Of a stretch of 64,000 nt of DNA, positions 18,351 to 47,879 are shown in pieces. A program made the position numbers and the translations under genes. Origin of the DNA: Sabellastarte sp. h YS-2021 (lineage: Eukaryota > Annelida > Polychaeta > Sabellida > Sabellidae); contig OZ024940.1 in the NCBI GenBank assembly GCA_964017235.1, positions 24,805,615-24,869,614 of the forward strand. The letters are read 5' to 3'. Under the pieces are notes generated by a model, which ran no database searches, had not been told where the DNA came from, and saw only the letters and a program-made list of their open reading frames with translations. Numbering within the stretch: position 1 is the stretch's first letter; every line of letters begins with the position of its first letter.

Positions 18351-18352
18351 AA

Positions 18353-21296: not shown

Positions 21297-21365
21297 CTAC
21301 TTCTTCACTGGGGCCAGATGGTGTCTGAAGTTTGGAGAGAATTGTTTGAATTTCACCACGGTTAC
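21297..21365 (-). CDS. Gelsolin-like gene, exon 9 (stop)
   Basis: Phase 0 exon after a CCGACAG acceptor: VTVVKFKQFSPNFRHHLAPV, KK, TAG. A second frame is also open across this stretch, but exon 8 ends in phase 0 and selects this one. The basic C-terminus is unfamiliar. This is the weakest exon in the chain because it is short. Confidence 0.5.
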   Translation of the reverse strand, partial: VTVVKFKQFSPNFRHHLAPVKK

Positions 21366-24300
21366 CTGTCGGTATGGTAGTGGACTATTCTTTAGAAAAT
21401 CCTGCCAAAAAAAAAATAATAACAAATAAAGATAGAAAATACATTGGGAAAAAAAGCAAGCATTCGGTGACCGATTTGGACAGTGGCCACAAATCTTGGA
21501 TTTCTGTTCAGAGTACTTTTCTTCAGTGTTACTAACAAATTACATTTGAAATCTTTTTTTAGGAATGGCAAAAGTGTAGGAAGGGGGTGGGGGTGGGCGT
21601 TTAATAGGGAGGGGGCATTTATATGGACAAATACGGTAAACGGGGAAGCTTGAATCAAAAAGGCGAGACATAAGAAGCTTCCTAATAGGGGATGTTACTG
21701 ATGGACTGGTTCTTATACATTTATTTATTTGGGTTTTACGTCACTTTCAACACTGTACAGGTCATATTATGGGAGGGCAGAGGAAACCAGTACATACAGT
21801 TCGTCAAGGTTCCATACTGTAAACTACCGACCAACGGCAAACGGTAAGCAACTACCAACCTTCCCACTTGAGGTCAGGCCGGGAAGCAAACACCGATCTC
21901 AGAGATGGAAGGCGAGAGTGTTACCACTCTGTCATCGTGGCCCCTGATTCTTATACTTGGATGGAGAGTTATTATATTCTTTTGTCCGGTAACGCGTCAA
22001 AGTAGGTCGCATTGGTAAGGTAATTCAAAACTAAATAATTTATTCCCAAATTTGTTCCTCTATTTACAGTTATAATTCTTACAAAATATCTGTATTTAAT
22101 ACACTGCACTCCCACGAAATAATTTTCCTAATTTCGTGGTTTCTATGTCACAAACAAAGTTTGTTTTCACTTACAAAGAAAAGGTCCCAGATTTGCCAGA
22201 CAGAAGAACTGGAGTGTATAATGACTGAGTCAGAAAAAATGGGAAATATGGGATTTGTAGACTTTATAATCAAAACAGGAGACGTGAAGGAACTTAAATT
22301 TAGGACAGCTGCATCTGGGGCCATATTTTACAACAATACTTAGAGTAAGAAATCTAAACTTCGCCGGGAATCTAAAATTCGCCACCTCTAAAACCTTAGT
22401 TAATTTTATGAAGAAAATGATGTTTTTGTCCAGAAACTGGTATTTTTCAGTTCAAAAAGCCTTAATTTACCATACAGTCAACAAATCTCACCACAATTCA
22501 TTTATTTTATTAGTATTTTCACATGTGGCGAATTTCAGATATGTGGCGAATTGTAGATTTCTTACTCTAGATTGTTCCTAACTTGGATCCTAAGTTTTTC
22601 TCAAGCTTTTATTACCTTAGATCAAAAGGGTATTCATCAACATTCCTAACTCTAAGGTCACCTGAGACCTCGACATAGATTTCAAGTTATCTGCAGAGGT
22701 ACCTTAGATGATAAAGTGTTTTTAAAATATGTAATTATTGCAGGGAATCTTGTTTTATTGACATTAATCTGTGAATCAATATAAAAAAACCAGTATCTTC
22801 CCTGTAGAAAATGAGCTTTTTCACCATTTGTAACAAAGCAGATGATTCAGTAAAAAACAAAGGACACCTTATGTAAGAATTGTTGTGCAATAAGACTCTT
22901 CCCTAACTTAGATATACTGGTTTACAGTTACAGTACAAAGTATAGGGAGTTTTCCGAACTTAGAATCTACGTAATACTTAACAAAGTAGAGGTTGATGAA
23001 TACTAAATCTAAGTAATATTTTGGTAAGTAGAAAACCATTCCTAACTTGGATCTAAGGTGACCTTAGCAAAGTGTTGTTGAAGGTTATTATTATTATTAT
23101 TATGTATTTATACTCAGCGCAATATCTCCATATAATACAGGACTCAAAGCGCTATTTAACCAATCCGACTGAACAGGTACAGCCCCAACTCACAAGTAAC
23201 TGACATTCCCTTAACTGGAAGATAGAGGCTCAAGGATGACCATTTATCAACGTCCTTGAGGTTCTTTAACCTGCCACTGGGGATAGGACCCTAATGACAG
23301 AGGACCGCCATTTTAAGTGGTCTATGTATCTGCCTGTACCTGGGATAGAATTACGGCCCCAGGTATTTCTAAACAAGGAGTACGGATAGAGGTTTTCACT
23401 TAGGTATAATGGTTGTGTATAATGGTCATGTTCTTGAATTTAGTAGGTGATCGGGCCAATTTCGAACTGTACCCTGTATATTACTGGGAGCTGGTGGAGA
23501 TTTGGACTCAGTGCCTACCCTGTATTTATTTATTTATTTGGGGTTTTACGTCGCTTTCAACACTGTACAGGTCATATCACGACGGGTAGTTGGAAGGGGC
23601 AGAGGAAACCAGTACATAGAGTTCGCTAAGGTTCTGTACTGTAAACTGCCGACCAACGGCAAGCAACTACCAGCTTTCCCTACCCTGTAGTGCTGTGACA
23701 ATGTTTGTAGAAGTTCGCAATAGTTCGCTCGTTTACTGCCCCAATTTCGAGGTTCATTTCAAACGTCTGAAATTTGGACGTTTTGGACGTGCAAAAAACG
23801 TTTAGAAATCACCAAGATCAGACCACATCCCAATGGATCCTATTTTCACGAATGTACATATCGTGCATTTTAACGAAAATAAGGTGAAATTTATTTAAAA
23901 TATCCATGGATTTCCTATTTTTTAAGCAAATTTTTGGCAAAGTGACAAGATTTAAATGTTAGATTTCTGCGTTTTTACAGATTGTGAAAATGTTGTTTTC
24001 GATGATCAGACCGGATCAAAGTTCGCTGGCTTGTACAGATACCAAACATCGAACCTGACATTCTAAGCAATCTCACAACACTACTTCCCTGTAGGGTGAA
24101 TTACACCCCCCCCCCCCCCCCCTCCAAAAAAAAAATGAAAAGGTTAACTGGAAGTATCTCAAAAAATAAAAAATAAATATACAAACGAGTCACAATACTC
24201 ACATGTCCATATTGCAAGGCGATGTCCGATTCTTCTTTCGTTAATTTCTTATTCAGTACAACAAATACCTCCTGCTGGTTGCCATAGAAACAGATCGGCT

Positions 24301-27300
24301 GAGAAAGGAAAAAGATCAGGTTATCTTTTAAAAAAAATGTTAAAGGAGTCGCGCAATGATCGATATTCGAAAACAAACTTTCAGCAACCGATGATTTTAC
24401 TGATCTCACACCGTGGAGTCTGTTGGGGTGAAGACTGCATAAAGCGTTTTAAGGTCACCATGAAAACAGAAAACAATTCAACTTATCTATATGGTATCTG
24501 GCTATTTTAAGACCAAAATAATCATCTTGTGAAAACTTGAAAACACACAATATTTATATTAGTTTTTCAGAGCAAACATCATGCTTACTTATCTATGAGA
24601 CAAAAGCTTAAAGCTTAAATACTTATTCGGATGCTTAATTGTTGTATATCCATTGGACAATAATATACTTACAAGAGTAAAGTCTCGATACTTAAATACA
24701 TATCAGACGAACACTTAATACTTATATATCAGATGAAAAACTTAATACCGTAGAACCTCCAATATCCGAGCCTATCGCATGAACTTTCAATTAACCCACC
24801 CCAAACCTACTCTCCTAAATCCATTTATACCTGTCACTTTAGGCTTTCTATCCCCTGACTTATATATATCCAGTAGAACCTCTATTATCCGACCTTCTCT
24901 TTTCCAAATTTTCAATTATCCGACCTCAAACCCACTCTGCCAACTCCATTTAACCCTGTTATTTTAGCCCTTCTATTATCCAAACCAATTATCCCTCCCC
25001 CAAGAGGATCGGATAATAGAGGTTATACCGTACTCTTATACCCCTTTCTTATACCCCTTACAGTACGTCCCATGGTTAAAGGAACCGCCTTGCAGGTCAC
25101 CCCATATTGTCCGAGTTGTTCACACTACAGGCGGACGGCCACTGATTGGACACGCTTTTTTAACCATCGATAACAGTATGATGACAGTACTACAAAGGTT
25201 GGTCACCGAGAAGCAATCTCCAGTAACCTAAACCCGCCTCTGGTAGCTGTCGGACGAACATGTGGCACAAACGACCAATACCTCCACTAGTGAGTGGAAT
25301 CGCCTCAATTTTCGCGGTCAATTATTCGTCCAATTTTCTGACCGATGATTGACCCATAATCGACTTTTTTACTTCACTGTAAGAAAATATATCATGAAAC
25401 ACTTTCCGGGATGAAGTATTTGTCAATCCGGTAAGAGTAACGGTGTTTCCGACATTTAGAACCTACCAAAAGCACTCACTTCCAGTAAATATGGCGGTAG
25501 ACATAAACAAACCCAAATTCGTGACAAATCTCATTATTTATCAAAGGAAAGTTAAGGAAATTGCTTAAAATCTAAAAAAACACGTGGATATTGAGACACA
25601 TAAGGATGGGTAAGATTTAATCAATTTCTAGAAGTTGTCAGTGACCGAACGCGATTGTACCATAACGCCGACGATTAATCGAACGTTGGTCTAATCGTCC
25701 CTTCACTAACCTCCACCCACCTTATGCCGCCTTGTTACACCAAAGGACAAACGAGTCACAACCTTATGTACACCGTGGACCACACTTTTGGTTACCGCTG
25801 GAAGAAATTCCCACACGCACGCACAGAATCATCTGCGCATGGTCACGGTTTCGAAATCACAGGTGGGAATTTTAAACTTTTCAAAACTTCCGTGGGAAGG
25901 AATGTGACAGTGGGCCATTGACTCACAAGTTTGCAAACGGCTGCCAGGCAGTGATCCAAGGACAGGGACGTTTCACCAAACGTGGGTTACCGTGGGTGAT
26001 ACGCCTTTAGTCTGAAAAGGGTATTAACTCTGATATATTCATTCATTCATAATTTAATACTTACAGTAACAACTTAACATTTATGCCAAAACTGAAAACT
26101 TAATACTTAGTACTAAAAACTAAAACTTAATACTGTACTTAAATCTTAACTCTTACACTAAAAATGTAACAGTTATACGAAAAACTGAATACTTACATAT
26201 CGGTCTAGTACTTTCTGAGACTGTTTTCCTTTCTTCACCAAATCAAAGCCCATGTTGTACTTGCTCATGCGCTTGTCCTTTGATAACCTGTAGCCAAAAA
26301 AAAAGAAAAAAAATATTCACCAAAAATTAAAATATAAATGGATCGATTTAATTATGTAATCTAAAATTTTCGCAAGAATTGTTTAAAAATTTCTTAACAA
26401 TTGCCATTTATTAGAGCCCTCTTAATGATCCTTCACTGTGCACCATATTTTGTCCATATAGGGGAATATACGGTGTGGGATATATTTTATTTGTATAAAA
26501 TGGAGCCTCTGTACCGTGGATAATTAGTGTCAACTAGAAATAGGATGTCCACCCAAAGGGAAGCATGAGTTTTGCTCTAAAACTTGGACAAAATTGGCAA
26601 GAGTAGATTGCTGAGATACCCTGTGGGTGGAAAATTTCCACAAAATCACTCTATCTCGCAAAAATTTGAAAATTCAAAATGGCCGCCATTTTTGGGGAGA
26701 GAAATTTTTTTTTGAAAATTGCCAAAAGTACATTGCTTAGATACCCTTTGGGTGGAAAATTTCAACGAAATCACTCTATCTCGCACGGTTAAGGAGATAG
26801 AAGGAAATTTGTGTTTTTGCATTTTTGGGAAAAATTTGAAAATTCAAAATGGCCGCCATTTTTGGGGAGAGAAATTTTTTTATGAAAATTGCCAAGAGTA
26901 CATTTCTTAGATACCCTGTGGGTCGAAAATTTCGACGAAATCACTCTATCTCACACGGTTAAGGAGATAAAAAAAGTCAACTCAAAATAGCATAATAGCT
27001 ATATAGCACAGTAGCTATTACTCAGTTAGCTATAAAGTTATTATCACCAAAAGCAATCCCAAGCAAGCTACTGATCCAATAATCCTCCATCCCAAATTTT
27101 GTGAACATAGGTGAAATACTTTTCCTTTAAAATGCTTAAAATAAAAAAGCTACTAAAAGTAGCCAAGTAGCTATTACGCAGTCAATTATATAGCTATTAT
27201 CACTAAAAGCAATCCCAAGCAAGCTATTGAACTAACTATTGCCCATACCAAATTTGGTAAAGATATGTCAACTATTTTTCCTTAAAATGCCCGGAAACAA

Positions 27301-30300
27301 AAGAAGTACACAAACGTAACTAAGTAGCTATTACTCGGTTAGATATAGAGCTATCTTCACCAAAAGCAATCCCATGCAAGCTATTTTAACCCAATCCACA
27401 CCCGTACCAAATTTGGTAAACATAGGATAAATGCTTTACCGTAAAATAACTGGAAACCAAGCGTGAAGGACGGCGGACGCCGGAAAAAGCAAAAGTAATA
27501 TGTCCACCCCCCCCCCACCCACCCCAGTGGAGTGGACATAACACCTGCCTTTTGAAATATGCATTGCCCCCCCCCCCCCGGGTGTTTATACAGATAAATA
27601 CAGTAGACATGTTCAGTTTTGTAGCAGTTTTTTTCTTGGCCATTAAGTGCGATGTGAACAACACCAGCTTTGCCCTTTGACTTGTCGAAAAAGCAGTTTC
27701 TCGGGTATACTTCTTACTTGTGGAGTTCGTATCCTTGGTCTGTCTCTTCCCGTCTCAAGGACGCTGTGTTTTGCTTATGTAAGGTGCTGCCCTCTACCTC
27801 GTTATCGCTGCCTTCCTGGTTACGTTTTGCCAGATATGTGTAGAATTCATGCTGAAAAGATGGGTGAAAAAATGTTTCGCAGTTAGAGAAGAGATTACAT
27901 ATCGATCACGGACTATGTGGCTCTATAGCTGGAGTGTTGGACTTCAGAACTGAAGGTTTGGGGTTCCATCCTTAGATAGAAATACTCAAGCAGCTTTATG
28001 ACAAAGAAAATGGAGCACCTACTATATGGGCCAATGGATTCAGCCACTCAAACAATGACTTATACTGAGACACGGCTCGACAGATTTCATAGCTTGTAAT
28101 GACACTAAAACCAGTATTTAAAAAAAATATTATTTCCATTTATGATGTCTAATTTAAATATTCAGATCATTAAAAATTCATTCTTTGAAACATTCATTTT
28201 GTTTTAGAGATATTTTATAAGATTTTTAAGCTATCTAGTCTTTGTCTATCTTACAAACTGTTTCTGGTTCATCAACATGATAATTACGTAAAAGTTCAAA
28301 ACTGTCGTCACTTTCCCATTTGACAGCCATTTCTCAGCATTGTCACTTGTGGGAGTGGAACCCACACAGAGGGGACAGCCTGTGATTAGATGCCAAACTT
28401 GCTGACCCACTAGGCCACTGAGGACCTAACGTAGTAACATCGCCCTGGGGTGTGAACCCCAAGAATCATGTAACCTAGAAGCTTCTTTTAATATGTCTTA
28501 AGTGTACAAAAAAAAATGTATCTGTAATGCTTATATTTGGATAGAGTGTAAGGCTGGTGGTATTAACAAACGAGGAATAGGTTTGAGCCTTACATCTGGG
28601 TGGAGAGGCCATGCTACCACAATGTAACATTCTCCCTGACGAACCATTACTTTCCATAGGGGTGGCGAGTATTGAGCAATTAGTGTGACCCTCCCACATT
28701 CAAGCCATTACTTTCCATGGTGAGTATTGAGCAATTAAGTTAACCCAACTTTAAACCATTACTTCCCATATTGGGCCAGGACTGTTAAAACCTTATTTTT
28801 TAACAAAAAAAAAAGAGAAAGAAATCCTTACAGCATCAGTCTCTGTGTCATCATCCAGGGCTTCTACTGTGGTCGTGTCACAGCCGCGGTCGGCCCGAAT
28901 TTTCTCCACAAAGCGGGTACATCGAAGGTCTTCCTCTGTGGGCGTCAGATTGCCGTGCCAGATGAACAGCTTCTTGCCCGTATCCAGGAGAAAGGTAAAC
29001 GCCGGATCGAGTTCAGTTACACTGCAGGCAACCTGTTTAACGATAACGTGGGATTTGATTAGAAGAGGGAAACTTCCCAAATGATACAAAAAAAAATGTC
29101 ACCAATGAATGTGATAATTTTATCATCCACCACGAGCCATATATAACCTGTATAGCAGGATATACACTTTTTACTGCGCTTTGTTGTATAAAAATCCATG
29201 CAGGGATTCATGAGGGATGTTTTCCCTTTATTATCCACCATTTTGTATGATTTAGAGTAAGAAATCTAAAATTCGCCAGGAATCTAAAATTCGCCACCTG
29301 TAAAACCTTAGTTAATTTTATGAAGAAAATGATGTCTCAAAATTGGTATTTTTCAGTTCAAAAAGCCTTAATTTACTATACAGTCAACAAATCTCACCAC
29401 AATCCATTTATTTTATTAGCATTTTCACTTGTGTCAAATTTCGGATATGTGGCGAATTTTACATTTCTTACTCTACAAGTGAAATTCATCCATTTTTAAA
29501 GAGAGAATGCTTACAAAGCTTTCATATATAAACATGGGCACCAGTGAATACAAAAACTTCAGTCTTTAACTTGCGATATCTCAATCATTTCTGCATGGAC
29601 AACAAAAGTGAGCAGAAGGGGTGTAATGAGACCTTTCTGATGATATATAATACAATTTATTATCCACCACACGACGTATTTGTACTAAATACGGGGAAAT
29701 ACAGACCGGGATGTATTTTTTTTGTACACACCGGCGCCCCGGTACTATGGATAATGAGTGGGAATAACTTCCGGTTTTTCAACAATATCTCGGAAAGTAT
29801 GTAACTTACAAATATGTATAATATATCATTAGAAAGGTGTTCTGACAGCGCTTCTGCTCATGTGAATTACATAAAAATCCATGCAGAAATAATTAAGATA
29901 TTGCAAGTTAAAGATTGAAGTTTTTATATTCACTGTGGCTACTGGTCTTTGATAGTTTTTTCACATTCTCTCATTAAAGATTCATGTTATTTAACCCATA
30001 AATCATACAAAATGGTGGATAATAAAAGTAAAACACCCCTCATCAGACATATACAGAAAAATATATCACTCATGAAGATTAACAATATAATACTCGTGCT
30101 ACGCACTCGTATAATATTGTTATCTTCATTCGTGATATATTTTTTCTGTATATGTCATTCGGGAAGTTTTCCTATTATAATATTTGTAGCTTATATAGTT
30201 TCTGAGATATTGGTAAAAGACCAGACGTTATTGACACTTATTATCCGTGGTATGCAAAGAAAATATATCCTGCACCTTATGTCCCACTATGTGGGATAAA

Positions 30301-33300
30301 TACGGCTCGCGGTGGATAACAAAACCCTGATCCGATGAATATTTTTTCAGTTGTGCATGCAGATAGTATTTGCTGAAGAATCACAGAAAAAAAAATCTGG
30401 ATTCACAGATCACCAGATTATCTTTTAAAAGGGACCAAATTGTGTGAAAATATGACTGCAATCAGCTATAATATAGCTTTTGAGTTATGCATGTGGTTCA
30501 ACAAACAAGCAGACATGCGAATGGACAAAATTACAAAACATAGTATAAGTGACTGACCTCTTTTCCGACAATGTATTCATCATGTACGTTGGGTTTGTAG
30601 AGTTTCAGCAGCCTGGCTCCGTAAACTTCGTCCAGCACATTTTTCATCCAGTAGCCTTCCTCAAACCTTCCTCTCCAGTATCTGAGCCAAAAAAACAAAA
30701 CAAAATCAAATAGAAGATAAAAAGAACATCACATGAAAATAAAAGCATCTAATCTAGGACACAAAAAATTAATTTATTTTATTGATTTACTGGCGATTTA
30801 ACGTCGCTTGCTTTTTTTATTTATTTATTTGGGGTTTTACATCGCTTTCAACACTGTACAGGTCATATCACGACGGGTAGTTGGAAGGGTAGAGGAAACC
30901 AGTACATACAGTTCATCAGGGTTCTGTACTGTAAACTGCCGACCAACGGCAAGCAACTACCAGCTTTCCCACTTGAGGTCAGCTTTTTTTATTTATTTAT
31001 TTATTTGGGGTTTTAACGTCGCTTTCAACACATGATATAGGTCACATCACGACGGGTAGTTTTGTGGGCAGAGGAAACCAGTACATACAGTTGGTCAAGG
31101 CTCTGTACTGCCCCACGTGGGTAAGACATTGCACGTGCAAAGCAGTAGATAAGATACTTTAGATTAAATTAGAGTAAATATAAAATTAGGAATGGGTCGG
31201 TGTCAAAAAGGTGCACATAGGGAGGCCGCCAATGCAAAAACCATACCGATTTCGGCACTCCGTGTTTTAGTACACCCCAACCAAACATGAGGAGGTTTCT
31301 CTGAATGACGTCGCAATAAAAGTCCCCAAATGCACAAAATATGAGATAAGTGTGAATATTTTCTTTAGATGTTTTTTTATATATTTCTGATATTTTAAGT
31401 TTTCCTTCCATTTTACGTGTTGACATAAGCGAGATTAAGGTCATAAAGTGTCATTACCAAAACATGGGAGTTCTGCTCAACGTATCGCTACAAAGTCTGC
31501 AAATGCACGAAAATATGGGATAAAAGCTTATAATTTCTTCTGATTTGGAGCATATTTCTAATACTTTAGCCATTCCTTCCATTGTATGTGTTGACAAGCG
31601 AAGTGGCGGCTTTAAAATCCTGTCACGGTATTTCAGTAAAATGCTCTTGATACCGAGATACCGGGCCTATCAATGCATCCCTGTATAAAATTGACATTAG
31701 ATTCAATTGATCTACTCACACTATTGGGCAGAAGTACTGTCGGAATTGCCTGGATTCCAGGCCCTGGATTTCTCTGTGTAAAATGCCAGTTCCCAGAAGT
31801 TTGTTGTCTAAATGTGATGCCCAGAAAATCCCAGATTTGTAGCCAGACTGAAGAAAAAATATATTAGAAATACAGCACAATTCTTTTTTTTTAAATTTTT
31901 ATTTTCTCTTTGCATGCATGAAAATAAGACAAGATCGCGACACAAGTACATTTACACCATACAACACATAAACTACAATTAAGGAACACTACTGAATACA
32001 GTACTTCATGAATATTAACCCACAGTTGCTGTTTCTTCAGGAAAATTTTGCCGGAGAATTCTATTTTTTTTTTTCAAAAAAAAAAAAAAGACTATGCTTA
32101 AATTCCATCTTTGCTACAAATTCTTGTAGATTTCTTGTACTTGTTTTTGAAAATCTTTGAAACTTAATTTGGTTAGTGTTTTGAGATATGGGATATGTAT
32201 CTCGTTGCTGCCATATATAACAATATTTACAGGTATATGAACCTTGTCATTTGAAAGATAACCTAAAATGATACTGGTATTGACGATATTTCAATTGAAA
32301 CCAGTTGCTTGTAAAAGTAGTTCCATTAAATTTTGCCGGAAAATGTGAACCCTTTCTCAAGTAGCAAAAAGGTGTATGCTAGCTTCGCTGTGGTGACTGC
32401 AAAGTGAACACAGAGGATTATCTAAGTTTTGCCTTAAACCCGTAGGCTTGTGTACCAAGTATATTATTCAAGATTTTATACTGAAACCATCTTGGGGGGG
32501 GGGGGGGGGGGAGGGCACGGTGGCACAGTGGTAACACCCTTGCCCCCCATCTCTGAGGTCAGCGGTTCAAACCCCAGACCTTATGTGGGAAAGTTGGTAG
32601 TTGCTTACCGATGGTCTGCAGTTTACAGTACTGAACCTTGACCAACTGTATGTACTGGTTTCCTCTGCCCGCAAAACTACTCGTTATGATACGACCTGTA
32701 CAGTGTTGAAAGCGACGTAAAACCCCCATATAAATCAAATAAAGAAAGAAACCACCTTAAACTGTTATCCTGTATAGTACTTAGAACATATATTGTATGC
32801 TTTTCCCCACATATTTGCATTTATCTCGACTTAGTCTTGTAGTTTTTCTGCCCAGGAAGGGAAGGTGGAACTGACACAATTTTTAACCCTACAGAGAGCT
32901 ACACTTTTCACAAGTCTCATTCTCTTTTCATCTAAATAGTTCATACAAGAATTTTAACAGGAATTAGACCAATCAACTTTTTTGTTAATTTATGAACAAC
33001 CTTTTACAGTGACAAGTAGGGAAGGGAACATATATCAATATTTCAATATCGATTGATATGTCTTCCTAAATTTCAATATCGATACTAAAAGTATGAATTT
33101 CAGTATCGTTTCCAGCACCCACCAGGAAGAATTTTCAATATAGTGTTGAAGTCTGTCAGTTCCATTGCAGTTTGATCAGTAATATTTATGCATTAAAAGA
33201 CATATTGTGAGATTTTTTTATGAAATTTAATTGCTTTTATAGGCAGCTTGTATTAAATTCATGGTTAGTTTTGTACATCTGATATGCTAGCAAAACAAGT

Positions 33301-36300
33301 TCCGATAACTGGAGGATCAGTAGGTGCAAAATAATGCATTTTACGGCGTGAAATAATATTCCAATAACGATCGATATGCAAAGGCAAATTACAGTTTGAT
33401 ATCGATATTGAAATTACATTTAAATCCCTACACTAGTGTTAAGTTCTCTCCACTATACCTCAGATGCAGTCTTTCCAATCCACACATGGACATGTCTAAT
33501 CGGCACATAGTTTGGCCTACCGGCCATCTGTACGAGTGTAACATTCAGCAGGATATAGACATCGGACATAAAGAACTGACCCAACATCTCAAACGGCAGC
33601 AGAACTGGGTGGTCTTTCTGTTTGATGAAAAAAAAAAATAACCAAGATATCAGACAAATTTGAAAAATTTTGTTGTAATTTTAATTTTTATTAGATAAAT
33701 ACTTACCATTTCCTGACCATTGCTATATGTTGGTGCCATCCAACTCACTGGCCAACGTTGAGAAACGTTTTAAGAAACCTTAAGAGGCCAGTGAGTGAGT
33801 GTGAACTAGCATGTCCCCCTAGTGGTCATGTGACCACGCTAGTAAACAACCTTCATTATTTTTGTTGCAGAAAATACTCCCCTAGTACTGAATCTGCGGG
33901 GAGGCAGGGGGGGACTATCCTGGTCAGGAAATGGTAAGTATTTATCTAATAAAAATTAAAATTACAACAAAATTTTTCAATTTTATTGCGAAAAATACAC
34001 TTACCATTTCCTGACCATTGCTGAATGCAGCCTTCATGGAAGGAGGGCAGTACTAGAATTTAAAGACCCAGTACACCACTCTGCACAGCTATCATACACA
34101 GCACAAACCTATAGGCATTCAGATCCAAACTAACCTCCCAGATGAGGCAGTGGAACTGTTGAGCACTACAAAACAACACAGCCTTGTTGCTGTTGCTGTT
34201 GCTGTTGTAGGAAGGAAGTAATCATAACAGAGACTCACTACCTAGCCTACAACTAAAACATTATGAGAAGTTTACATTGAAATTTACATGCATACTACAA
34301 CATATAAACTTCCAACAGTCACCACATACCATACAGATCCCCTAAATCATAGTATGTAGTTGAAGTTCTCACAAACTGACAGTCATTGTCACAGTTGAAT
34401 GTTGCATCTAGACAAACATCCAACACCCACACAGGTGACACAAATATTGGAAGTGTCATCAGCATATTGTGTAATTCCAAGCCTGAATGAAGTCAACAAT
34501 TCTGCCTAATAAAAAGACAGATAGTATGACAGACATACAGATGCAAATGTATACTAAAGTATCAAAATAGGTATCACACATATACTTATAAGATTGCAAA
34601 CTGTAGGACACAATATCAAAGTCTGACCACAAGCAAACCAAGCAGGTGAGACTGAAAATTGGTGAAAAAGTTATGGTTTCCAGTAACAGGCATCTGAAAA
34701 TTCATATACAGAAACACTATACTAAAACCTAAAGATTCTTGCTTTGACTCGCTGCTGTTGAGAGTCAGAATTTGACTTCTCCTCAGTCAAAAAGCTAGTC
34801 TGCCTACAGCAAGATAAGATAGTAGACCTGAAAATATCTGCTGTAAAGCCTTCCTAACTAGGCACAGACAAGACATAATAATTCCTCATTGAATCCTTTG
34901 TCCCAAGTAAAAGTATTTCAAAACCTCACAAGACAAAGAGATCTATCTTGAGTAAAACTGCTGTCCCAGTGATTGAGAGCTGGCATATCGACCGGCTTAA
35001 CTGAAGTAGGCCCATCCAAAGCCAACTGAATCTTGGCTAATAAATGGCCAGAGCCACTTGTGAGCAATACTCATTCAAAGTAAGGGAAGACAAAGCTAAC
35101 GAAAATACCCTTCTTCCTTTGCCTAATGCCAAAGTCAAAAGAAAGACCGTCTTGAAAGTTAATAACCTCCAAGAAATCTTCCCCAAAGGCTCAAACGGCT
35201 GTCTGGTGAGACCAAACAAGACCAGAGACAAAAGGAAAAGAAGGCTTAACCTATTGACTACTGGATTGTCTCTATAGAAATATGTCAACAATCTATACAG
35301 CTGAAGAGTTCTAGAGACTTATTCTCCTTCAAGGAAAGCAATCTACCATTGTTATTCTGAAACCAGCAATAGTAGATGGCTTAAGATTCCTTTCCTTAAA
35401 GAAATAATTAAGGAAATTTGCTACATCTAGAAAAGAAGTATCTGAGAAGTTCACCACAAAGAAGCCTCAGATGTGCATAGATTTACCAGGTCCCACAACC
35501 AAGAACATCCACCATGACCATCATGATTCAATCATGATGAATCTGCACCTGAAGGTGGTCATCTTCTAAATCACCTGAAGAATCCTTGGCTATCCTGGTG
35601 CAATCATGATGATTCTGCACCTGTAGGTGATCATCTTGAGTCACCTGAGGAATGAGAACCACTGGAAACAAACACAAAGCTGTCCAGATCCTCCCAAGAA
35701 ATGAGTAATGCACCTGATCCCCAAGCCCCACAGTCTAAGAAAGGAAACACATACACTGGAAGCTTAAGATTCAGGTTATTGGATACCAATGGCATAATGA
35801 TTGAACTCACCAGCAAGGGAAGCCTTAAAAAGGAACCTTTGTGGAACAGATCCACCAGATCCCAAAAATAAGACATCCCTAGTCACTCTGATGCAATCCA
35901 GATGATTCTGCACTTAAATCTTGGAGTAGCCATTCTTAATAGCTACAAAAAGAATTTTCTTGACTTTCCTGAGATCTTTGACTTATCCAGATAACCTCTC
36001 AAGACTCTCACTGGACAAAGAAACCTATCTTGCACCAAAGCATGATCTAAAGAAGGTTCCAAAACAGGAATGACTACAGGTTGAAAAACCAAAGGAGCCT
36101 TAGAAGCCAAATGATTCACCTGCATCACCTGAAGAATCAAGGTCACAGGACCAAACAAACTGTCCAGTCCATCCCAAGAAAAGTTGAAAAAGACAAGCTT
36201 GTGGTTCAAACTAGTTGCAAAACAAATCCATCATTGGTGATTGTAATCAAAGACAGATTTGATTGAACACCTGAATCAGAATAGAAGATTCAAAAGTCAT

Positions 36301-39300
36301 CCAAAACACATTCAATTTGAATCACCTTGACTCTCATGAACAAAGAATTTGTTAGAACATTTGTATACCCTGGGAAGTGATATGCCTGAATCTGAACCCA
36401 TCGCATTCGTCCAAGGAATGATTCTTCAGATAAGGAAACACATTCCTGAAAGTGGGTACCTCCCTACCTGTTCAGATAGGAAACCACTGAAGAACTGTCT
36501 GTGGAAATCAACAGATTTAGAATCCGAATCAGACTTCCAAATGATTCTAAAGGTAGTAGCACTGTTAATGTGGAGTCTTGACCCCTCATGATACAACAGA
36601 CCACTGGCTGTTTGATGCCATAATTGTGCATCCCAACCCTAAAAGAAAGCATCTAATAACAGAAGGAGATTGTGCTCCTTCTGATGAAGTAATGGGAGCT
36701 CCTGCAAATTTGAAAAGTCGGTCCACCACTGAAGATGATCCCTGAGAACCTGAGAATATCACAAGATCTCTGGAACTCTAGAAGATAGCCTTGACCAAAA
36801 TGACCCAATGGCCTTGTCTTATCCTATGAAGCCATGCCACCAACCAGAAAAATGGCTTCCTAGAAACCATTAACTGGAGAATCTGCAATTCAAAATAAAA
36901 ACCCTGAGACTGGGACTTAACTTGATATAATAAATCATGATCCAAACCTGGCTTTAGACATGTACCAAATGTATATAAAGTGGTGACACCGAATGCCTTC
37001 TACTACAGCCATCATGTTCACTATCATTTGATACCAGCAGAGCCGAAAATAAACCATTTCAAAGAGCCAGGCAATGAAATGGTCTATATACTGGTAAAAC
37101 ATGATGCGTTCTTATAGATCCCACAGTTTCACCATGTACTGACATAGCGAAGAGACAATGAACTGGTGTGATCTGTCATCAACACTGAAGTGAAGATAAA
37201 AATTCGCGTGAATCCGGCTACGAAAGAATGCCACTGTAAGGAAAGGTACAAATACCTCCATTCACTTACTAGAAACAAAAGCAAATATTCCAATATTGCG
37301 AAATTAAGGTACATGTAAAGGCCTGTTTAACTGACCTCAACTATTGGTGGTAGCCATCTCTTCCCAGCTTATGACAACCGATAAACTGTAAAATTGCAGC
37401 GATATCCCCATCTTACTGGTGTTATCGCCCTTTTGTCGATCATTTCATAAACAGCTCCTATCAAACTGTTGTCTCTCGCCCTTTTTTTTTTTTTTTTTTT
37501 TTAACTTCAAAACCCATGTCCACAAATGTTTTCTGCATATGGATCAGAACTACTTCCTGCTACTGTCGCTTCCGTGAAAAAAATGGATGAAAAAAGTCCT
37601 GCTACTGTCTGAACAAGTAAGAAATTGTATATCTGCGAAACTGGACATACATTCCTCCTAAACAATTACTCCATTAAAAACATTACTAACTTATATTACT
37701 TCTAATTCCCCCATGTCTATCTGAGGAACAGAGTAAGAGGAAGAATTGTCATAAAAGGGACAAAAGTATATGTTGTAGTGCCTTTTATGACGTTTCTAGT
37801 CATATGTCAGATTTGGCCCTTCCTAACATAAGAATCCCCATAACATGAGATTACAAAATGAAGTTTTTCGGGGCATCTGACATGTGTCCACCAAGAAAAA
37901 ACTTCATTAACAGTGAAAAATGCACTCCTTATCCCACTAAAATATTTAAAGAGATATGTTAGAGCACTGAAAGATCTGAAACACTCCTGGTGAGCAAAAA
38001 TTCAGGATCTTTGAGGACTGTAATTGCAAATATTCTGGTGACAAACCAAGAAATTGCTGATATTCTATGAGAAGTAGCTAATCCTTATAGATCCTTGAAG
38101 AAATCCTGCCAGAGGTCCTGCTAGACCACTTCCAATAATTCTTATCCAAGATTTGACATGCTCTCTAGCTGCTGCAGAGAACCAGAGAACATGTACTCTT
38201 GAATAATAAATTGACAATGGCTACTAGTTATATGTACCGGTGCCGGTTTCCAGCAGAAAAACCGGTAAAAAAAATATAGACTGAAAAGGCAATTGCTGAG
38301 ATGAATCACAACTCCGGTCATCTGTCAAACCGATTCCAGACCTTTGAGGAGGTATGGAAACTCGATTGTGTTCGGATGACGTCATTCAGGTATTTTCCTC
38401 CGTGAAAAGTTCCGACTGAAGTCCATCGGAAGAAATAAATGGAGAACAGATCAAATCTGCATTCGGAACTTGTCCAAGAGCATGTCTGACCCCAAAGGGG
38501 ATTCCATCCAGTCACCCCTTCGGCAGAGAATGACGTGGTGAGATATATGCTACCAAACTCCCGGCTAAATGAACCCGACGAGTGAACAGGTTTATAACAA
38601 TCGAATTGTCTTTCATGGCGACTTCCTTGGTTGCCTAGCAACCTGTAAACTGTCCCTGCCGGAGCTAGTAAGACTGCCGACAGTTTCAGTGTATATTGTT
38701 GTAAATCTTCAATCTAGTGGACAAAAAATATAAAAATAAAAGAACTTGGCTCATCTTCATGAAACACAAGCCTTTTGAAGGAAAAATTGAATTCTGAATA
38801 GAGGAATCCTCTTCATCCAACAACGAAACATCAATGCCGCCATCTTAGAAATAGTGGCGCTCAATCCACCATAAAATGTCCACAAAAGCACTTTCCCTCT
38901 GTGCTTTTTTAATTTCGTCCTGAGAAGACATTGTCAACACAGATGTCTTACCACAGAACTCAAAAAGCCACAAAAACCATCAAACTTAATAAAAATCCCA
39001 ATAGAAAAAAATACGTCCACACTCTGGGATGGCCAACAAAAATAATGAAGGTTGTTTACTAGCGTGGTCACATGACCACTAGGGGGACATGCTAGTTCAC
39101 ACTCACTCACTGGCCTCTTAAGGTTTCTTAAAACGTTTCTCAACGTTGGCTAGTGAGTTGGATGGCACCAACATATAGCAATGGTCAGGAAATGGTAAGT
39201 GTATTTTTCGCAATAAAATTGGAAAATTTAATAGTAATTTAAATTTTTATTAGAATTACTTACCATTTCCTAACAGTAGCTATTTTTTGGAGCCATCCAA

Positions 39301-41531
39301 CCCATAATGGCCAATGCAGAGAGGTGATTTTTTAAGGTCATCTAACAACCTTAACCAAGCCATTGGGTTACAGTAGCCCGTTCTCCCGCCAATTAGGTCA
39401 CATGACCCCTTTCTTTACTTCATTTTTTCGCTATAAAACTGTTTATTACGGTACGGTAAAAGTACTGCATTATATTTATACTCTGTGCGATTACGCCTTT
39501 ACTACGATTGGACTCGAAGAGCTATTTGACCCATCCTGTCTGCACAAGTACAGCATAAGCTCTCTGGTGACTAACACTCCCCTAACTGAAAGACACAGGG
39601 TCTTAGGGATGACCATTTATCAACCTCCCCCAGGGGTGGTATTCACTAACATTCCTAATCTTAGTCTTATCTTAGTCATAAAATTTATGACCTTTGTCTT
39701 AGTTAAGATAGATCCCAACTTGGTATTCACAAAGCATGTCCTAGCTAGGACAATTTTCCTAATCCTATCTTTGTCCAAAGTTGCAAATCTCGTGAGAGTT
39801 TGTATAACACATTATAACCACTTAGATTTCATAATGTGATGCAAACATTCTCGTCTGCTTTATGTGTCACAATGGATGAATTAAGTACAGTTGAGAGGAG
39901 ACAGCCTCTAAGCATTTCCTAACTTTATGACAATAGTTAGTAGTGTTGGGAATCGCCTCCAATTTTCATGGTCGATTATTCGTCCATTTTTCCGAGCAAT
40001 GATCGACCCATAATCGATTATTTTACTCCATTATTGTTTATTATTTAAGAAACACTTTCCGGGATAAAGTATAGGTCAATCTCATAAGAATAACGGTGTT
40101 CCGACATTTAGAATCTACCAAAAGCACCCACTTCCTGTAAATATGGCGGTAGACATAAACAAACTTGAAATTCAGGACAAAACTGTCAGTTTATTAAGTA
40201 AAAATACCTAAAATATATTTTAAAATACCTGGATATTGATATAAATCAGGAAAGGTAAGATATAAGCTTAATAATCGATCATTAGAAAACGTCAGTGACC
40301 GACCGCGATTGTACACTGTCACTGATGGTTAATCGAGCACACGTCTAATCGTCCATCCACTAATAGTTAGGACTATGATAATAAGACTATGATGCTTTGC
40401 GAATACCAATTTCACTTGGAAAATTATCCTAACATATTTTTATGACAAAAATCCTAAAATTGTGACTAAGACTAAGATCGGAATGTTAGTGAATACCGCC
40501 CCAGGTTCTTTGGCCTGCGACTGGTTACAGGACCCAGTGACAGGGGACTCCACCTTTGTGATATAACCCTGCAATTCATACTGTCTAAAATCACAAATCT
40601 GATACTTAACAGTTGTTTTGACCAAAACAAAAAAGCCATTCATTCTGTAAAAGGGCACATCACGGAACAGCCAAAATCTGTGAGAATTTAGACTACAGTT
40701 TTGCAGCCAATCAATTAGAATAGAGCGGCTGATGCCTGTATGGATCCATGACTATCTGTTACAACAGATGACAAAGCTGAAACTCAAATGAGGGCAAACA
40801 AGTGGAACATAAGGACAGCCTCTCCTGGTATGACCCTGGCTGTCGAAAGATTGATGTAAACCCTACGTTTGACCTTTGACTTTAGTGGAAATGTACAGAC
40901 TTACATGTATCCTCCATACGTACACACAGGGGTTGTCTATGTTGACAAACTGCCATGGATCGCTAACTGCCTGGCAGCTTTCTGAAAATGTACCAAAAAT
41001 GATACTGAAACCAGAAAATCTAATTTTGATCAGCATGTTAAGATATCAATAGAAACTGAGTGATTCTAATGGCTGTAAGCAGAGTTTCAAACCTGCTTAA
41101 TAATACAAAGAGCCATTTGAGGGGTTGTGAAAGTTTAATATAAGATATTACAATAATTTTTTGTCATAACATTCTGCAGAAAGTTTTTTTTATTGTTGAA
41201 AAACTTCAACACAACTATAATTCTTCCACAGGCTTGATATATACTTATCCTCAGAAAGCGGGGTTTTCATTTTTGGTACAAGGACCAAAAATACTGTAAA
41301 ACAGTCTACATAGTGGGCCACCTGAAGAATTGTAAATAATTTGGAAATCTACAGAAAACACAAGGTCAGGTAATATGTATAGAGGTTTTTATCGCATTAC
41401 CTAAATGTTCTCAGAATGCAAATAGAAAATACTACGAATTTGTTCTTACCAAGCAGCTGGTGCTGAAAAGATTTATCTCTCAGATTGAAGTTACAGTCCT
41501 TCCAACTGTAGGCTGAGTTATCTGGCCTCAT
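21297..41531 (-). CDS. Divergent gelsolin-family protein, nine-exon gene (span)
   Basis: Nine exons join to about 338 codons, close to the length of short gelsolin-family proteins such as CapG or severin. Every junction is phase-compatible except exon 6 to 7. Residues 43-149 match gelsolin repeat 1: a VWRI strand, an FFMSDVYILL segment, a VHVWIGK core strand and LHREIQGLES, which corresponds to the HREVQG(F/H)ES signature. Residues 178-257 match repeat 2: RLLKLY, then FTFLLDTGKKLFIWHG, then an RFVEKIRADRG helix. Gelsolin repeats bind and sever or cap actin under calcium control in the cytoplasm; that role is inferred from family. Repeat 2 has LDPAF where the family has a Gly-Asp, so one calcium ligand is missing. 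The last 80 residues match no gelsolin repeat I recognise. Introns 1 to 8 are filled with transposable elements. An AATAAA lies on the minus strand at 21120-21125, about 170 bases past the stop. Confidence 0.8.
21718..21946 (-). mobile_element. SINE-A, full length
   Basis: Reverse orientation; TTTATTTATTTGGGTTTTAC tail and CGTGGCCCC head end. Confidence 0.8.
22343..22567 (+). mobile_element. TA-flanked MITE, copy 1
   Basis: Starts GAGTAAGAAATCTAAACTTC and ends with GAATTGTAGATTTCTTACTC, an inverted repeat of about 25 bases, flanked by TA on both sides (Tc1/mariner-type target). About 88% identical to copy 2. Confidence 0.8.
22628..23006 (+). mobile_element. Possible Harbinger-like MITE
   Basis: Left end GGGTATTCATCAACATTCCT and right end GGTTGATGAATACT give a 13-base inverted match (GTATTCATCAAC), similar to the 39.6 kb element ends. 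The interior repeats CCTAACTTGGATC words. Boundaries and target duplication are unclear. Confidence 0.35.
23088..23372 (-). mobile_element. SINE-C, nearly full length
   Basis: Reverse orientation, from the TTATTATTATTATTATG tail to ACCTGGGATAGAATTAC (box B complement). The best copy for defining the family. Confidence 0.7.
23420..23515 (-). mobile_element. L2/CR1-like LINE, small fragment
   Basis: GTACCCTGTATATTACTGGGAGC resembles the 58.78 kb fragment. Too short to say more. Confidence 0.3.
23522..23679 (-). mobile_element. SINE-A, 5' truncated, with target duplication
   Basis: Reverse orientation, ends at AGCTTTCC. Flanked by CCTACCCTGTA on both sides, an 11-base duplication showing insertion as an already truncated copy. 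Confidence 0.8.
23688..24083 (+). mobile_element. hAT-like MITE
   Basis: Ends TAGTGCTGTGACAATG and, inverted, TAGTGTTGTGAGATTG. Flanks CTACCCTG and CTTCCCTG (7 of 8 match). 396 bases without coding potential. Begins exactly at the 5' duplication of a truncated SINE-A. Confidence 0.6.
24106..24122 (+). repeat. Poly-C run (17)
   Basis: Uninterrupted C run about 80 bases from the donor of gelsolin exon 8. Confidence 0.95.
24203..24298 (-). CDS. Gelsolin-like gene, exon 8
   Basis: 32 codons, phase 0 at both ends, between a TTTCCTTTCTCAG acceptor and a GTGAGT donor. Reads PICFYGNQQEVFVVLNKKLT and then a short acidic helix-like segment. It does not match gelsolin repeat 3. The strand pattern (EVFVVLNKKLTKEE) could be a very degenerate third repeat, but that is a guess. 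Confidence 0.65.
24744..24870 (+). mobile_element. pogo/Tigger-like MITE, partial, abutting the next copy
   Basis: Starts ACCGTAGAACCTCCAATATC and has the same interior as 24871-25033 but is cut short where that copy begins. Confidence 0.5.
24871..25033 (+). mobile_element. pogo/Tigger-like MITE
   Basis: Left end CCAGTAGAACCTCTATTATC, right end (inverted) TACGGTATAACCTCTATTATC. The short interior repeats TTATCCGACCT-type words. CAGTA..CCTC..TTATCCGA ends are characteristic of pogo/Tigger elements in the Tc1/mariner superfamily. Confidence 0.6.
25288..25708 (+). mobile_element. hAT-like MITE, copy 1
   Basis: 421 bases starting TAGTGAGTGGA and ending TCCCTTCACTA (inverted: TAGTGAAGGGA). Flanked by a perfect 8-base duplication, ACCTCCAC (25280-25287 and 25709-25716). 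About 80% similar to copy 2. Contains ATATGGCGGTAGACATAAAC. No coding capacity. Confidence 0.85.
26197..26287 (-). CDS. Gelsolin-like gene, exon 7
   Basis: The only open frame reads KRMSKYNMGFDLVKKGKQSQ and seven more residues up to a GTAAGT donor in phase 0. The obvious acceptor (GGCTACAG) would need two extra bases from exon 6, which ends in phase 0. An AAAG acceptor ten bases downstream (exon 26197-26277) restores the phase. Either that site is used or a small exon between 26.3 and 28.8 kb was missed. Confidence 0.6.
26595..26975. repeat. Tandem repeat, three partial units of 120-170 bases
   Basis: Core CTTAGATACCCTGTGGGTGG, AAATCACTCTATCTCGCACG alternates with AAAATGGCCGCCATTTTTGG. The GCCGCCATTTT word is a YY1-type site in each unit. 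Confidence 0.75.
27013..27480. repeat. Tandem repeat, three units of about 155 bases
   Basis: Units at about 27013, 27170 and 27325 begin TAGCTATTACTCAGTTAG and contain CCAAAAGCAATCCCAAGCAA. Ends in GTGAAGGACGGCGGACGCCG, a motif typical of a mollusc/annelid-type dispersed element end (general knowledge). Confidence 0.75.
27650..27870 (+). pseudogene. Possible hAT transposase fragment (TTF-type zinc finger region)
   Basis: One plus-strand frame reads SKKQFLGYTSYLWSSYPWSV, SSRLKDAVFCLCK. This resembles the W(L)..yPWLvYS...DgaFC..C motif of the TTF zinc finger found in hAT/ZMYM-type transposases. About 60 codons only, with stops on both sides. Confidence 0.35.
28325..28432 (-). mobile_element. 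SINE-B, tail missing
   Basis: Reverse orientation; keeps the box B and box A region (CACTAGGCCACTGAGGAC). Directly beyond it, at 28205-28310 on the minus strand, lies a 31-codon open stretch starting MAVKWESDDSF that I could not connect to any gene. Confidence 0.7.
28832..29032 (-). CDS. Gelsolin-like gene, exon 6
   Basis: 67 codons, phase 0 to phase 0, between a GTTAAACAG acceptor and a GTAAGG donor. Contains FTFLLDTGKKLFIWHGN (family: dcFiLDlG..iyvW.G) and the helix CTRFVEKIRADRG (family: a..vak.IrdneR.G). GC content and codon use are higher than in the surrounding intron. The usual Gly-Asp before FiLD is absent (PAF). Confidence 0.9.
29255..29473 (+). mobile_element. TA-flanked MITE, copy 2
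   Basis: Same family as 22343-22567, same TA flanks, 219 bases. Lies in intron 5 of the gelsolin-like gene, close to exon 6. Confidence 0.8.
30558..30681 (-). CDS. Gelsolin-like gene, exon 5
   Basis: One base completes the valine codon from exon 4, followed by 41 codons. YWRGRFEEGYWMKNVLDEVY corresponds to the linker that in gelsolin reads kGGvaSGF..V. It is followed by ARLLKLYKP, the counterpart of RLlhvkGkr at the start of repeat 2. Ends in phase 0 at a GTCAGT donor. The sequence just upstream of the acceptor is A- and T-rich. Confidence 0.82.
30765..30810 (-). mobile_element. SINE-A tail fragment
   Basis: ATTTAACGTCGCTT is the end of the SINE-A body, directly followed by another copy. 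Confidence 0.4.
30811..30981 (-). mobile_element. SINE-A, 5' truncated
   Basis: Second of three stacked copies; breaks off at CACTTGAGGTCA. Confidence 0.75.
30982..31115 (-). mobile_element. SINE-A, 5' truncated
   Basis: Third stacked copy, starting with its TTTATTTATTTATTTATTTG tail and ending after GTCAAGGCTCTGTACTG. Confidence 0.75.
31720..31847 (-). CDS. Gelsolin-like gene, exon 4
   Basis: 42 codons plus two bases between a TTTTTTCTTCAG acceptor and a GTGAGT donor. Carries HLDNKLLGTGILHREIQGLE, the clear counterpart of the gelsolin repeat 1 stretch (v.LDdyL.g.avqHREvqG.ES). This is the strongest single piece of family evidence in the gene. Starts in phase 0 and ends in phase 2. Confidence 0.88.
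31865..32488 (-). mobile_element. L1/Tx1-like LINE, C-terminal fragment
   Basis: Minus strand: WFQYKILNNILGTQAYGFKA, stop, SSVFTLQSPQ, then RKGSHFPAKF, later YIWQQRDTYPISQNTNQIKF and FVAKMEFKHS. This matches the YKILh.iL.T..yl.k......C..C tail of L1/Tx1 LINEs. Stops are frequent, so it is older than the 15.2 kb copy. It ends in T-rich DNA next to gelsolin exon 4. Confidence 0.65.
32494..32511 (+). repeat. Poly-G run (18)
   Basis: Directly before a SINE-A head. Confidence 0.95.
32512..32755 (+). mobile_element. SINE-A, full length, preceded by poly-G
   Basis: GGGCACGGTGGCACAGTGGT head directly after an 18-base G run; box B is GGTTCAAACCCC. Confidence 0.8.
33017..33430 (+). mobile_element. 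Possible hAT-like MITE
   Basis: Begins GTAGGGAAGGGAACATAT and ends ACATTTAAATCCCTACAC. The subterminal parts share CAATATCGAT palindromes (ATATCGAT in both orientations). Target duplication not clear. Abuts gelsolin exon 3. Confidence 0.4.
33459..33617 (-). CDS. Gelsolin-like gene, exon 3
   Basis: 53 codons, phase 0 at both ends, between a pyrimidine-rich ATCAAACAG acceptor and a GTATAG donor. Contains LPFEMLGQFFMSDVYILLNV, aligning with the VP..lyGdFytGDaYvvL stretch of repeat 1, then VHVWIGKTASE, aligning with the yWiGkeas.DE strand. The insert between the two strands (MAGRPNYVPIRH) is unlike gelsolin or villin. Confidence 0.85.
33702..33867 (+). repeat. DIRS-like element, left inverted terminal repeat
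   Basis: Reverse complement of 39034-39199 with few mismatches. Contains a palindromic TGGTCATGTGACCA core. The segment just outside it (33661-33725) reappears inverted at 33925-33982, forming a hairpin like the terminal plus internal-complementary layout of DIRS elements. Confidence 0.75.
34600..35291 (-). pseudogene. DIRS-like tyrosine recombinase, catalytic part
   Basis: In minus-strand order: WRLLTFKTVFLLTLALGKGR (box I region, expected ..lALa..kRrSElhal), DRSLCLVRF, then GFTADIFRSTILS (expected KGFtkeIsraTIssW), then RVKA, then FSDACYWKP, stop, LFHQF (expected iL.acyWk...tFt.fYlrD). The order is the normal one for a YR domain. Several stops and frameshifts make it inactive. Confidence 0.65.
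35520..35935 (-). repeat. Short tandem duplications inside the DIRS-like element
   Basis: A unit of about 75 bases containing ATGATTCTGCACCTG and CACCTGAAGAAT recurs at 35530-35590, 35600-35660 and, more diverged, near 35890. In minus-strand translation this gives DDHLQVQNHHDCTRI twice. It looks like internal expansion of old coding sequence. Confidence 0.5.
35943..36209 (-). pseudogene. DIRS-like tyrosine recombinase, N-proximal fragment
   Basis: Open for 88 codons. HALVQDRFLCPVRVLRGYLD and KSKISGKSRKFFL match the DR.LCPVRAL..YLdrT.......LF segment between the two catalytic halves of these recombinases. A second LCPVR-like copy lies at about 34900-34960 (TQDRSLCLVRF), so this may be a duplicated or rearranged piece. 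Confidence 0.6.
36340..36680 (-). pseudogene. DIRS-like RNase H remnant
   Basis: LLLDAFF, stop, GWDAQLWHQTASGL corresponds to the RNase H start (TDAS..GWGahl....SG.W). It is followed by EGSRLHINSATTFRI, matching the .LHIN.LEl.ai motif, and FSGFLSEQVGRYPL. At least two stops interrupt it. Confidence 0.65.
36700..37320 (-). pseudogene. DIRS-like reverse transcriptase remnant
   Basis: Degraded minus-strand coding DNA. The stretch at 36700-36790 reads PEIL, stop, SQVLRDHLQWWTDFSNLQEL, matching the connection between RT and RNase H in DIRS-type elements (pattern dHL.WW...NL). RT similarity further upstream is faint and no intact catalytic motif can be read. Confidence 0.5.
38628..38642 (+). promoter_or_regulatory. 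Perfect palindromic X-box
   Basis: GGTTGCCTAGCAACC is a full-length match to the RFX-factor X-box consensus (GTNRCC N0-3 RGYAAC). It lies near the 5' end of the DIRS-like element, where an element promoter could sit. Function is inferred from the motif alone. Confidence 0.35.
39034..39199 (-). repeat. DIRS-like element, right inverted terminal repeat
   Basis: Mirror copy of the left repeat. Beyond the shared segment it continues with GTATTTTTCGCAATAAAATT, which on the left side is found only at the internal arm near 33985-34005. Confidence 0.75.
39634..40501 (+). mobile_element. Harbinger-like MITE, interrupted
   Basis: Ends are inverted repeats of about 37 bases: left GGGTGGTATTCACTAACATT, right (reverse complement) GGGCGGTATTCACTAACATT. 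Flanked by the 3-base duplication CAG. Without the nested hAT copy it is about 438 bases. The 3-base target and GGG..TATTCAC ends fit PIF/Harbinger, but no transposase is present. Inserted into a SINE-C copy. Confidence 0.7.
39941..40362 (+). mobile_element. hAT-like MITE, copy 2, nested
   Basis: 422 bases starting TAGTGTTGGGA and ending TCCATCCACTA, same family as 25288-25708. Perfect 8-base duplication ATAGTTAG (39933-39940 and 40363-40370). Inserted inside a Harbinger-like MITE. Confidence 0.85.
40800..40888 (+). mobile_element. SINE-B, 3' part
   Basis: ATGACCCTGGCTGTCGAAAG and AACCCTACGTTTGACCTTTG match the SINE-B body; the head is missing. Confidence 0.5.
40905..40981 (-). CDS. Gelsolin-like gene, exon 2
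   Basis: A TTTTCAG acceptor and an ATGTAAGT donor flank 77 bases. The first two bases complete the split codon from exon 1 (Glu). The 25 residues that follow end in NPCVYVWRIH, the first strand of gelsolin repeat 1 (family form: gl.iWRiE). Ends in phase 0. Confidence 0.8.
41450..41531 (-). CDS. Gelsolin-like gene, exon 1 (start)
   Basis: Reads MRPDNSAYSWKDCNFNLRDK and seven further residues, then a GTAAG donor in phase 1. The ATG sits in a good context (ACAAAATGA) and a TGA precedes it in frame, so I take it as the start. The sequence before it is A-rich and makes a poor splice acceptor. If an acceptor is nevertheless used, the protein would extend further upstream. Confidence 0.65.
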
Positions 41532-41629
41532 TTTGTTTTTATTGGTTCACTTCTGTGTGTACTGGGACAGCTTCTGAAACAGATGAAACCATTCTGTCAC
41601 CCCAACATTCTTCATTCATAACTCTTTCA

Positions 41630-41850
41630 GTATTTATTTATTTAATGGGTTTTTAAGTCGCTTTCAACACTGTTTTGGTCATATCACGACGGGTAGCTTT
41701 GTGGCCGGAGGAAACCGGTGCATACAGTAGGTCAAGGTTCTGTACTGTCAACTGCTGACCATCGGTAAGCAACTACCAACTTTCCCATATAAGGTACAGA
41801 GTTTGAACCTATGACCTCCGAGGTGGAGGACAAGTGTCAACATTTTATCA
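41630..41850 (-). mobile_element. SINE-A, full length, diverged
   Basis: Reverse orientation, just upstream of the start exon of the gelsolin-like gene. Confidence 0.75.
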
Positions 41851-42554
41851 TCATGATATTGAAAATAATTATTGAAAATTAGGAAATGTATTTGGAAGTT
41901 TCAAAAGGATTCTAAGCAAATTGAAAAGGTTTTAAATCCAACCCAAATCCTATTTCTCACAAAGGGAATTGAAATACTTTCAAATCCTCCAAATACTGAT
42001 CTTAAATCCTTTCAAATCCAAATCCTTAAAGGAATTGAACTCAAGCCTGGTAATATAATTTGAATTATAATCGCACAATGCGAAACGGACAGCAACATAT
42101 CACCAAAATCAATGTTTCATTACTAATTTACACCAGTTTGGACATGGAAAAAGACATACATATATGAGTACATTGTAGATCTACTTTCTGGCAGGATATC
42201 AAATCAAAATGTACTAGGTATCTATTCATTTCACAAAACAAACTGTGGAATCCTGTTGAAATATGAAAACCCTAACCTGAGTTTTGTCACCCAGTGAAGT
42301 ATGTCATCTGTCATATAAACCCTCAAGGGCCAGCAACATTCATGACTAACCAAATGTAATCATTGCTTACAATATTAATGTGTAAATTAATGATAAAATT
42401 TAAGCATGAAAATGTTAAAACATTGTCATAAAATGCAGGTGACAAACTTCACTGGGTGACAAAATTCACAGGCTGAGCAGCATCAAAAACTGCTTTTACG
42501 ATTTTTGAGCAAAATCTACATGTAGAACTCAAATATTCCAAGCTCTCTTATGAC

Positions 42555-43150
42555 TAATAACAGTAATTAGGGTCTCAGGGATGATCACTTGTCAACCTCC
42601 CTGGGGGTATTTAGCCTGACACTGGGGATAGGACCAAAAGACAGGGGACTTCTAGTTTAAGTGGTCATCTGAGTCACTGTATCTGTCTCTACCTGGGATC
42701 AAACCTGAAAGTGGTTACCTCAGCTCTACTTTACTTACGTGTAGAGCCGTGACACGATCCCACATAAAACTGGAGATTTGCACAGAAAACTTTCCTGTTG
42801 AATTAAACTAGGTAAATGGTTAAATTTGACTTTTTGCTGTTTGAACCAATTGATTCTAATGTAAGGATGACAAGGTTATGATATATAAGCCATTTCATTC
42901 AACTTTTTACAGTAAAATCTTCAAAAAAATGTTGAAAATGGGTAAATGCCATTTATTTTCACTCAGTTATCTTTGCATGTTGAAGGGGAATATAGGTTAA
43001 CAAAATAGTTCTGCAAATACTTGGGTAAATACATCTGTAGGTATTTGAAGCAAATCTCCAGTTATACGTGGGGTTGTGCCACGGTTCTACTGACAAGTAA
43101 AGTAACCATGTTTAGGATCAAACCCAGGTCCTCTATGTTCCTAGTGGCTT
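42555..43150 (-). mobile_element. SINE-C, split by a Mutator-like MITE
   Basis: Outer parts 42555-42705 and 43125-43150. The break lies in box B (GGATCAAACC duplicated). Confidence 0.65.
42706..43114 (+). mobile_element. Mutator-like MITE inserted in a SINE
   Basis: 409 bases with inverted ends of about 65 bases (inner part ...ACTGGAGATTTGC on both arms) and several indels. Flanked by GGATCAAACC (42696-42705 and 43115-43124), a 9-10 base duplication. It splits a SINE-C copy through its promoter box B. Older than the 43.9 kb copy and unrelated in sequence. Confidence 0.7.
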
Positions 43151-43908: not shown

Positions 43909-43940
43909 CAATGTCAAAAAGGGAAAGTCCAAGGACGTAT

Positions 43941-47870: not shown

Positions 47871-47879
47871 CTCTATGTA

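Follow-up and report, generated by a model that had tools for sequence, protein, structure and literature searches.

A divergent gelsolin-family gene in a sabellid annelid, probably a fast-evolving paralogue of the animal three-repeat severins

Severins carrying three gelsolin repeats are known from several animals, and that of Clonorchis sinensis has been reported to bind both calcium and actin (PMC3868641). In gelsolin, calcium in repeat 2 is bound by G186, D187, E209, and D259 (PMC13013752), and Flightless-I, built of leucine-rich repeats and six gelsolin domains, is described as being without most of these ligand elements and as acting on actin independently of calcium (PMC7509490). Here we analyze a gene on the minus strand of a 64,000-nucleotide stretch (the window, C21:24805615-24869614) of the 1.786 Gb genome of Sabellastarte sp. 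h YS-2021, assembled in 647 contigs. It is a known kind of gene and an unusually divergent member of that kind, and we consider it, with a probability of roughly 0.7, to be a real gene, a rapidly evolving paralogue of the three-repeat, severin-type gelsolin gene of animals. With the C. sinensis severin (PMC3868641) it shares a similar length class and, most likely, the three gelsolin repeats; unlike it, the window gene has substituted ligands. Human gelsolin and CapG are collinear with the window gene across repeats 1-3, at 25.8% and 23.7% protein identity, respectively, but the calcium ligand positions are kept in both. A literature search, which was not made by organism, found no report of such a gene.

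Exons were sought with a purpose-written GeneWise-like spliced aligner, and the resulting model runs from an ATG at 41531 to a stop at 21297, comprising ten exons and 1197 spliced bases (398 codons plus the stop, with no internal stop). All nine junctions are GT-AG and the exon phases are consistent, taking eight listed exons together with the chosen exon 8, so that the chain of phases and splice sites claimed in the original prediction holds, with ten exons instead of the nine proposed. With human gelsolin and CapG as the only references, the aligner recovered exon 3 (159 bases, 33617-33459), which holds the core of repeat 1 and corresponds to canonical exons 3 and 4 fused; exon 4 (128 bases, 31847-31720), with the second half of repeat 1 and the motif HREIQGLES; exon 5 (124 bases, 30681-30558), with the end of repeat 1 and the linker to repeat 2; exon 6 (201 bases, 29032-28832), which encodes repeat 2 and corresponds to canonical exons 7 and 8 fused; exon 9 (96 bases, 24298-24203), with the core of repeat 3; exon 10 from 21401 onwards; and the end of exon 2 (40934-40905). 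Exons 4, 5, 6, and 10 were found with both aligner profiles, exon 3 in the aligner paths and as a Pfam piece (its donor being weak, score 0.1), and exon 6 by PF00626 and PDB matches as well, and the intron comparison described below bears on exons 3, 4, 5, 9, and 10.

A profile of the same-genome family added exon 1 (82 bases, 41531-41450), aligned from 41510 and extended to the ATG, which carries an N-terminal YxWKDxN motif and ends in phase 1, and the whole of exon 2 (77 bases, 40981-40905), which opens repeat 1 and passes from phase 1 to phase 0. Exon 1 was the top exon-1 candidate within 33618-47000, and its score of 27.3 was equaled in 0 of 150 shuffles (at most 21.0); exon 2 scored 27.9 against at most 25.2 in 150 shuffles, none of which was as high. 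At a lower intron penalty (-11), the family profile also added exon 7 (134 bases, 27851-27718), the linker between repeats 2 and 3 and the top of 25 phase 0-to-2 candidates, and it started exon 9 at 24274, compared to 24298 in the model. Exon 8 (91 bases, 26287-26197), the start of repeat 3, is the top of 12 phase 2-to-0 candidates, chosen with its phases imposed. Exons 7 and 8 are the least certain parts of the model, exon 8 above all. Several candidates were dropped: 25462-25343 from the human-reference path, having weak sites and no family match; 46982-46976 and 24419-24412 from the family-profile path, only 7 and 8 bases long; and 26620-26553 from the same path, with a weak donor and adjoining a tandem repeat at 26660-26969. 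Zero-length exons in some aligner paths are aligner artefacts.

The gene is a member of the gelsolin superfamily, as originally predicted: the joined exons match PF00626 in two stretches (E 1.3e-9), with 38.2 bits for the whole protein against a cut-off of 21. When the repeats were separated, repeat 1 reached 17.9 bits, below that cut-off, and repeat 2 reached 25.6, above it. Residues 44-380 of the spliced protein match gelsolin chains in the PDB, the best being human gelsolin D187Y (6jeh_A, E 1.3e-25), and the peptide of the repeat-2 exon matches gelsolin, villin, fragmin, and Lokiarchaeota gelsolin chains (best E 4e-7). Among 27 six-frame pieces of minus strand 16501-42300, two had a gelsolin Pfam match, one around 29032-28832, just above the cut-off at 21.3 bits (E 2.4e-4), and one around 33617-33459, below it (E 0.19); on the plus strand, which served as an aligner control, the gelsolin Pfam search covered 34501-37800 only. 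The aligner score of the region was 159.0 with the family profile and 140.6 with human gelsolin and CapG only, compared to 47.3 and 48.5 for the best of 60 dinucleotide shuffles and 36.8 and 44.8 for the best of five other strand or region controls. When the whole genome was searched with 203 residues drawn from four exons, four of the six matches listed were the gene itself, and of the other two, one lay in the villin-type gene (E 1.1) and one had an E of 8.7; at the sensitivity of this search, no close paralogue was seen. Rfam gave no matches over the window.

The same genome carries a canonical three-repeat severin-type gene of 12 exons (C21:8948685-8968621, plus strand), together with genes that we take to be gelsolin-type, villin-type, and Flightless-type, the type names being our own reading. 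The severin-type gene shares with the window gene the YxWKDxN N-terminal exon and, most likely, the three-repeat layout, although identity is only 24.4% over 349 columns, and the N-terminus that had been called unusual thus resembles exon 1 of this gene. Comparison of the introns showed that 9/9 have the same phase and 8/9 the same alignment column, the ninth being off by one column in a gapped stretch; 7/9 were recovered without imposed junctions and 5/9 with human references only, and the two introns flanking exon 8 rest on the phases by which that exon was chosen. A phase-0 intron at column 266 is common to the window gene and the severin-type gene and absent from the gelsolin, villin, and Flightless genes. 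The first intron is likewise common to the two, the other three gene models ending short of that position. Two canonical severin-type introns are missing from the window-gene model. Hence the intron positions and the N-terminal exon fit the animal severin-type lineage. The insert in repeat 1 that had been proposed is also present, amounting to 4 residues relative to the severin-type paralogue.

Sequence trees fail to place the gene because of its long branch. The tree of repeats 1-2 gives it no placement and an end branch of 3.74, and in the full-length tree (end branch 3.48) it joins a Flightless pair weakly (29/40), with a warning from the program that long branches meet; end branches of 3.5-3.7 compare with a median of about 0.7. 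The severin grouping is absent from the best full-length tree, yet it is unrejected, as are all placements compared (p-AU 0.248 for severin-type, 0.229 for gelsolin-type, 0.152 for villin, and 0.088 for CapG). Since the trees reject no placement, the severin-type placement rests on exon structure. The weak join, together with the top pairwise identity, which is to human Flightless-I (29% over 210 columns), and two features found in both, an LDPxF stretch and a Phe in place of D187, would suit a Flightless-I relative stripped of its leucine-rich repeats. This origin is highly improbable: the same-genome Flightless gene has other intron phases, 2/4 of its junctions being without counterpart (phase 1 at column 152 and phase 2 at column 235), the window gene keeps E209 where Flightless has lost it and shows none of the leucine-rich repeats, and the join itself is the one to which the long-branch warning applies.

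A third, strongly diverged repeat most likely follows the two that had been predicted. Pfam recognizes repeats 1 and 2 and leaves repeat 3 of the spliced protein unseen, a BLASTP comparison of its repeat-3 core with that of the canonical gene gave no match, and the family-profile path at an intron penalty of -14 ends within repeat 2, all of which would be expected of a true two-repeat gelsolin with an unrelated C-terminus, close to what was originally predicted. Such a gene is very unlikely in view of the exons themselves, as exons 9 and 10 were recovered with human references only, and the supposed unlikeness of the C-terminus to repeat 3 gives way to a match with the canonical repeat-3 exons in length and phase. 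Exon 9 has 32 codons, as does its equivalent, canonical exon 11, and exon 10 (105 bases, 21401-21297), with the end of repeat 3 and the stop, aligns to canonical exon 12, phases being equal in both cases. With canonical junctions imposed, exons 9-10 scored 52.1, a value reached by none of 200 shuffles (maximum 29.8) and none of 27 natural pieces (maximum 38.6); exons 7 and 8 were absent from the best path of this scoring. Moreover, when the 100 residues comprising the end of exon 7 and all of exons 8-10 were compared by hhalign with five repeat-3 sequences of the family, the probability was 83 and the E 8.5e-6 over 48 columns. Exon layout and N-terminal exon thus point to a three-repeat severin-type member and not to a two-repeat novelty, and they illustrate that exon structure can expose a repeat overlooked by profile searches.

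The calcium ligands were compared in gelsolin numbering; apart from the four repeat 2 ligands, the roles of the positions compared are presumed. The window gene keeps D66, D109, and E209, and it replaces G65 by Ser, E97 by Gly, and V145 by Phe, as well as G186 by Ala and D187 by Phe in repeat 2, which confirms the predicted loss of the Gly-Asp ligand there. A Glu lies two residues before the E97 position, where the alignment could shift, and the Asp position of repeat 3 is Pro; the D259 equivalent falls in a gapped stretch and was excluded from this judgment. The type II ligand set (D66/E97 in G1, D187/E209 in G2) is therefore incomplete, with E97 and D187 lost and D66 and E209 kept, whereas the severin-type gene elsewhere in this genome keeps the equivalents of E97 and D187. 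The loss of ligand positions, including the Phe at D187, is shared with Flightless-I. With ligand positions replaced in all three repeats, it is reasonable to infer that calcium control has been lost in part.

As judged from the sequence, its function is likely calcium-independent actin binding or capping. Repeat 1 would retain its fold and its actin contact, since the D66 and D109 equivalents are kept, and through this contact the protein would probably bind actin monomers and cap filament ends, perhaps with weak severing. The calcium switch may be blunted, as in Flightless-I, because type II site ligand positions are changed in all three repeats, and the predicted product would then consist of three gelsolin folds that contact actin mainly via repeat 1 under little calcium control. 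No hydrophobic N-terminus was seen by eye, and the protein is therefore probably cytosolic. A bolder version, rather unlikely, is that a severin paralogue, freed of calcium control throughout its three repeats, was rapidly repurposed to bind actin monomers or cap barbed ends constitutively in a specialized tissue, its Flightless-like repeat 2 having been reached independently. Calcium independence, if true, would show that these gelsolin residues are dispensable in an intact three-repeat actin regulator, by a route separate from that of Flightless-I.

The lost conserved ligands, the very long branch (3.48-3.74), and introns rich in transposons could also be read as signs of a severin-type gene decaying into a pseudogene, its frames still open by chance. 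We regard this as unlikely, given GT-AG at all nine junctions and a third-position GC that is coding-like (0.54, where the gene span as a whole has 0.379 and four paralogues have 0.47-0.66). The 398 codons without a stop, against about 26 expected in random codons of equal composition, also speak against decay, a suggestive figure only, as the exon finder demands open frames.

Beside the canonical severin-type gene, C21:8841294-8906600 has ten matches to the severin-type protein on the minus strand, three of them copies of its exon 5 at 70-76% identity; to judge by these matches, severin-type genes or exons are clustered locally here. Within the window, intron 2 contains a stretch of about 5.6 kb between inverted repeats (33656-39254), whose arms of 167 nt (33701-33867 and 39034-39200) are 99% complementary. 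Minus-strand frames in it at about 36.3-36.65 kb recall by eye the RNase H of DIRS/Gypsy-like elements, and Pfam on the stretch found no RNase H match. Upstream of the gene, 45001-47999 on the minus strand carries a degenerate reverse transcriptase (RVT_1, E 1.6e-9), a LINE-like remnant. Intron tandem repeats occur at 26660-26969, with a period of 170 bases, and at 27010-27437, with a period of 156 bases, and a 146-base tandem repeat in three copies lies at 18349-18774. A dispersed repeat, SINE-like by eye, recurs at about 11.1, 21.8, 23.6, 30.9, 41.7, 54.9, and 61.4 kb, and yields spurious one-strand translations approximating RPQVGKLVVAxRWSAVYSTEP.
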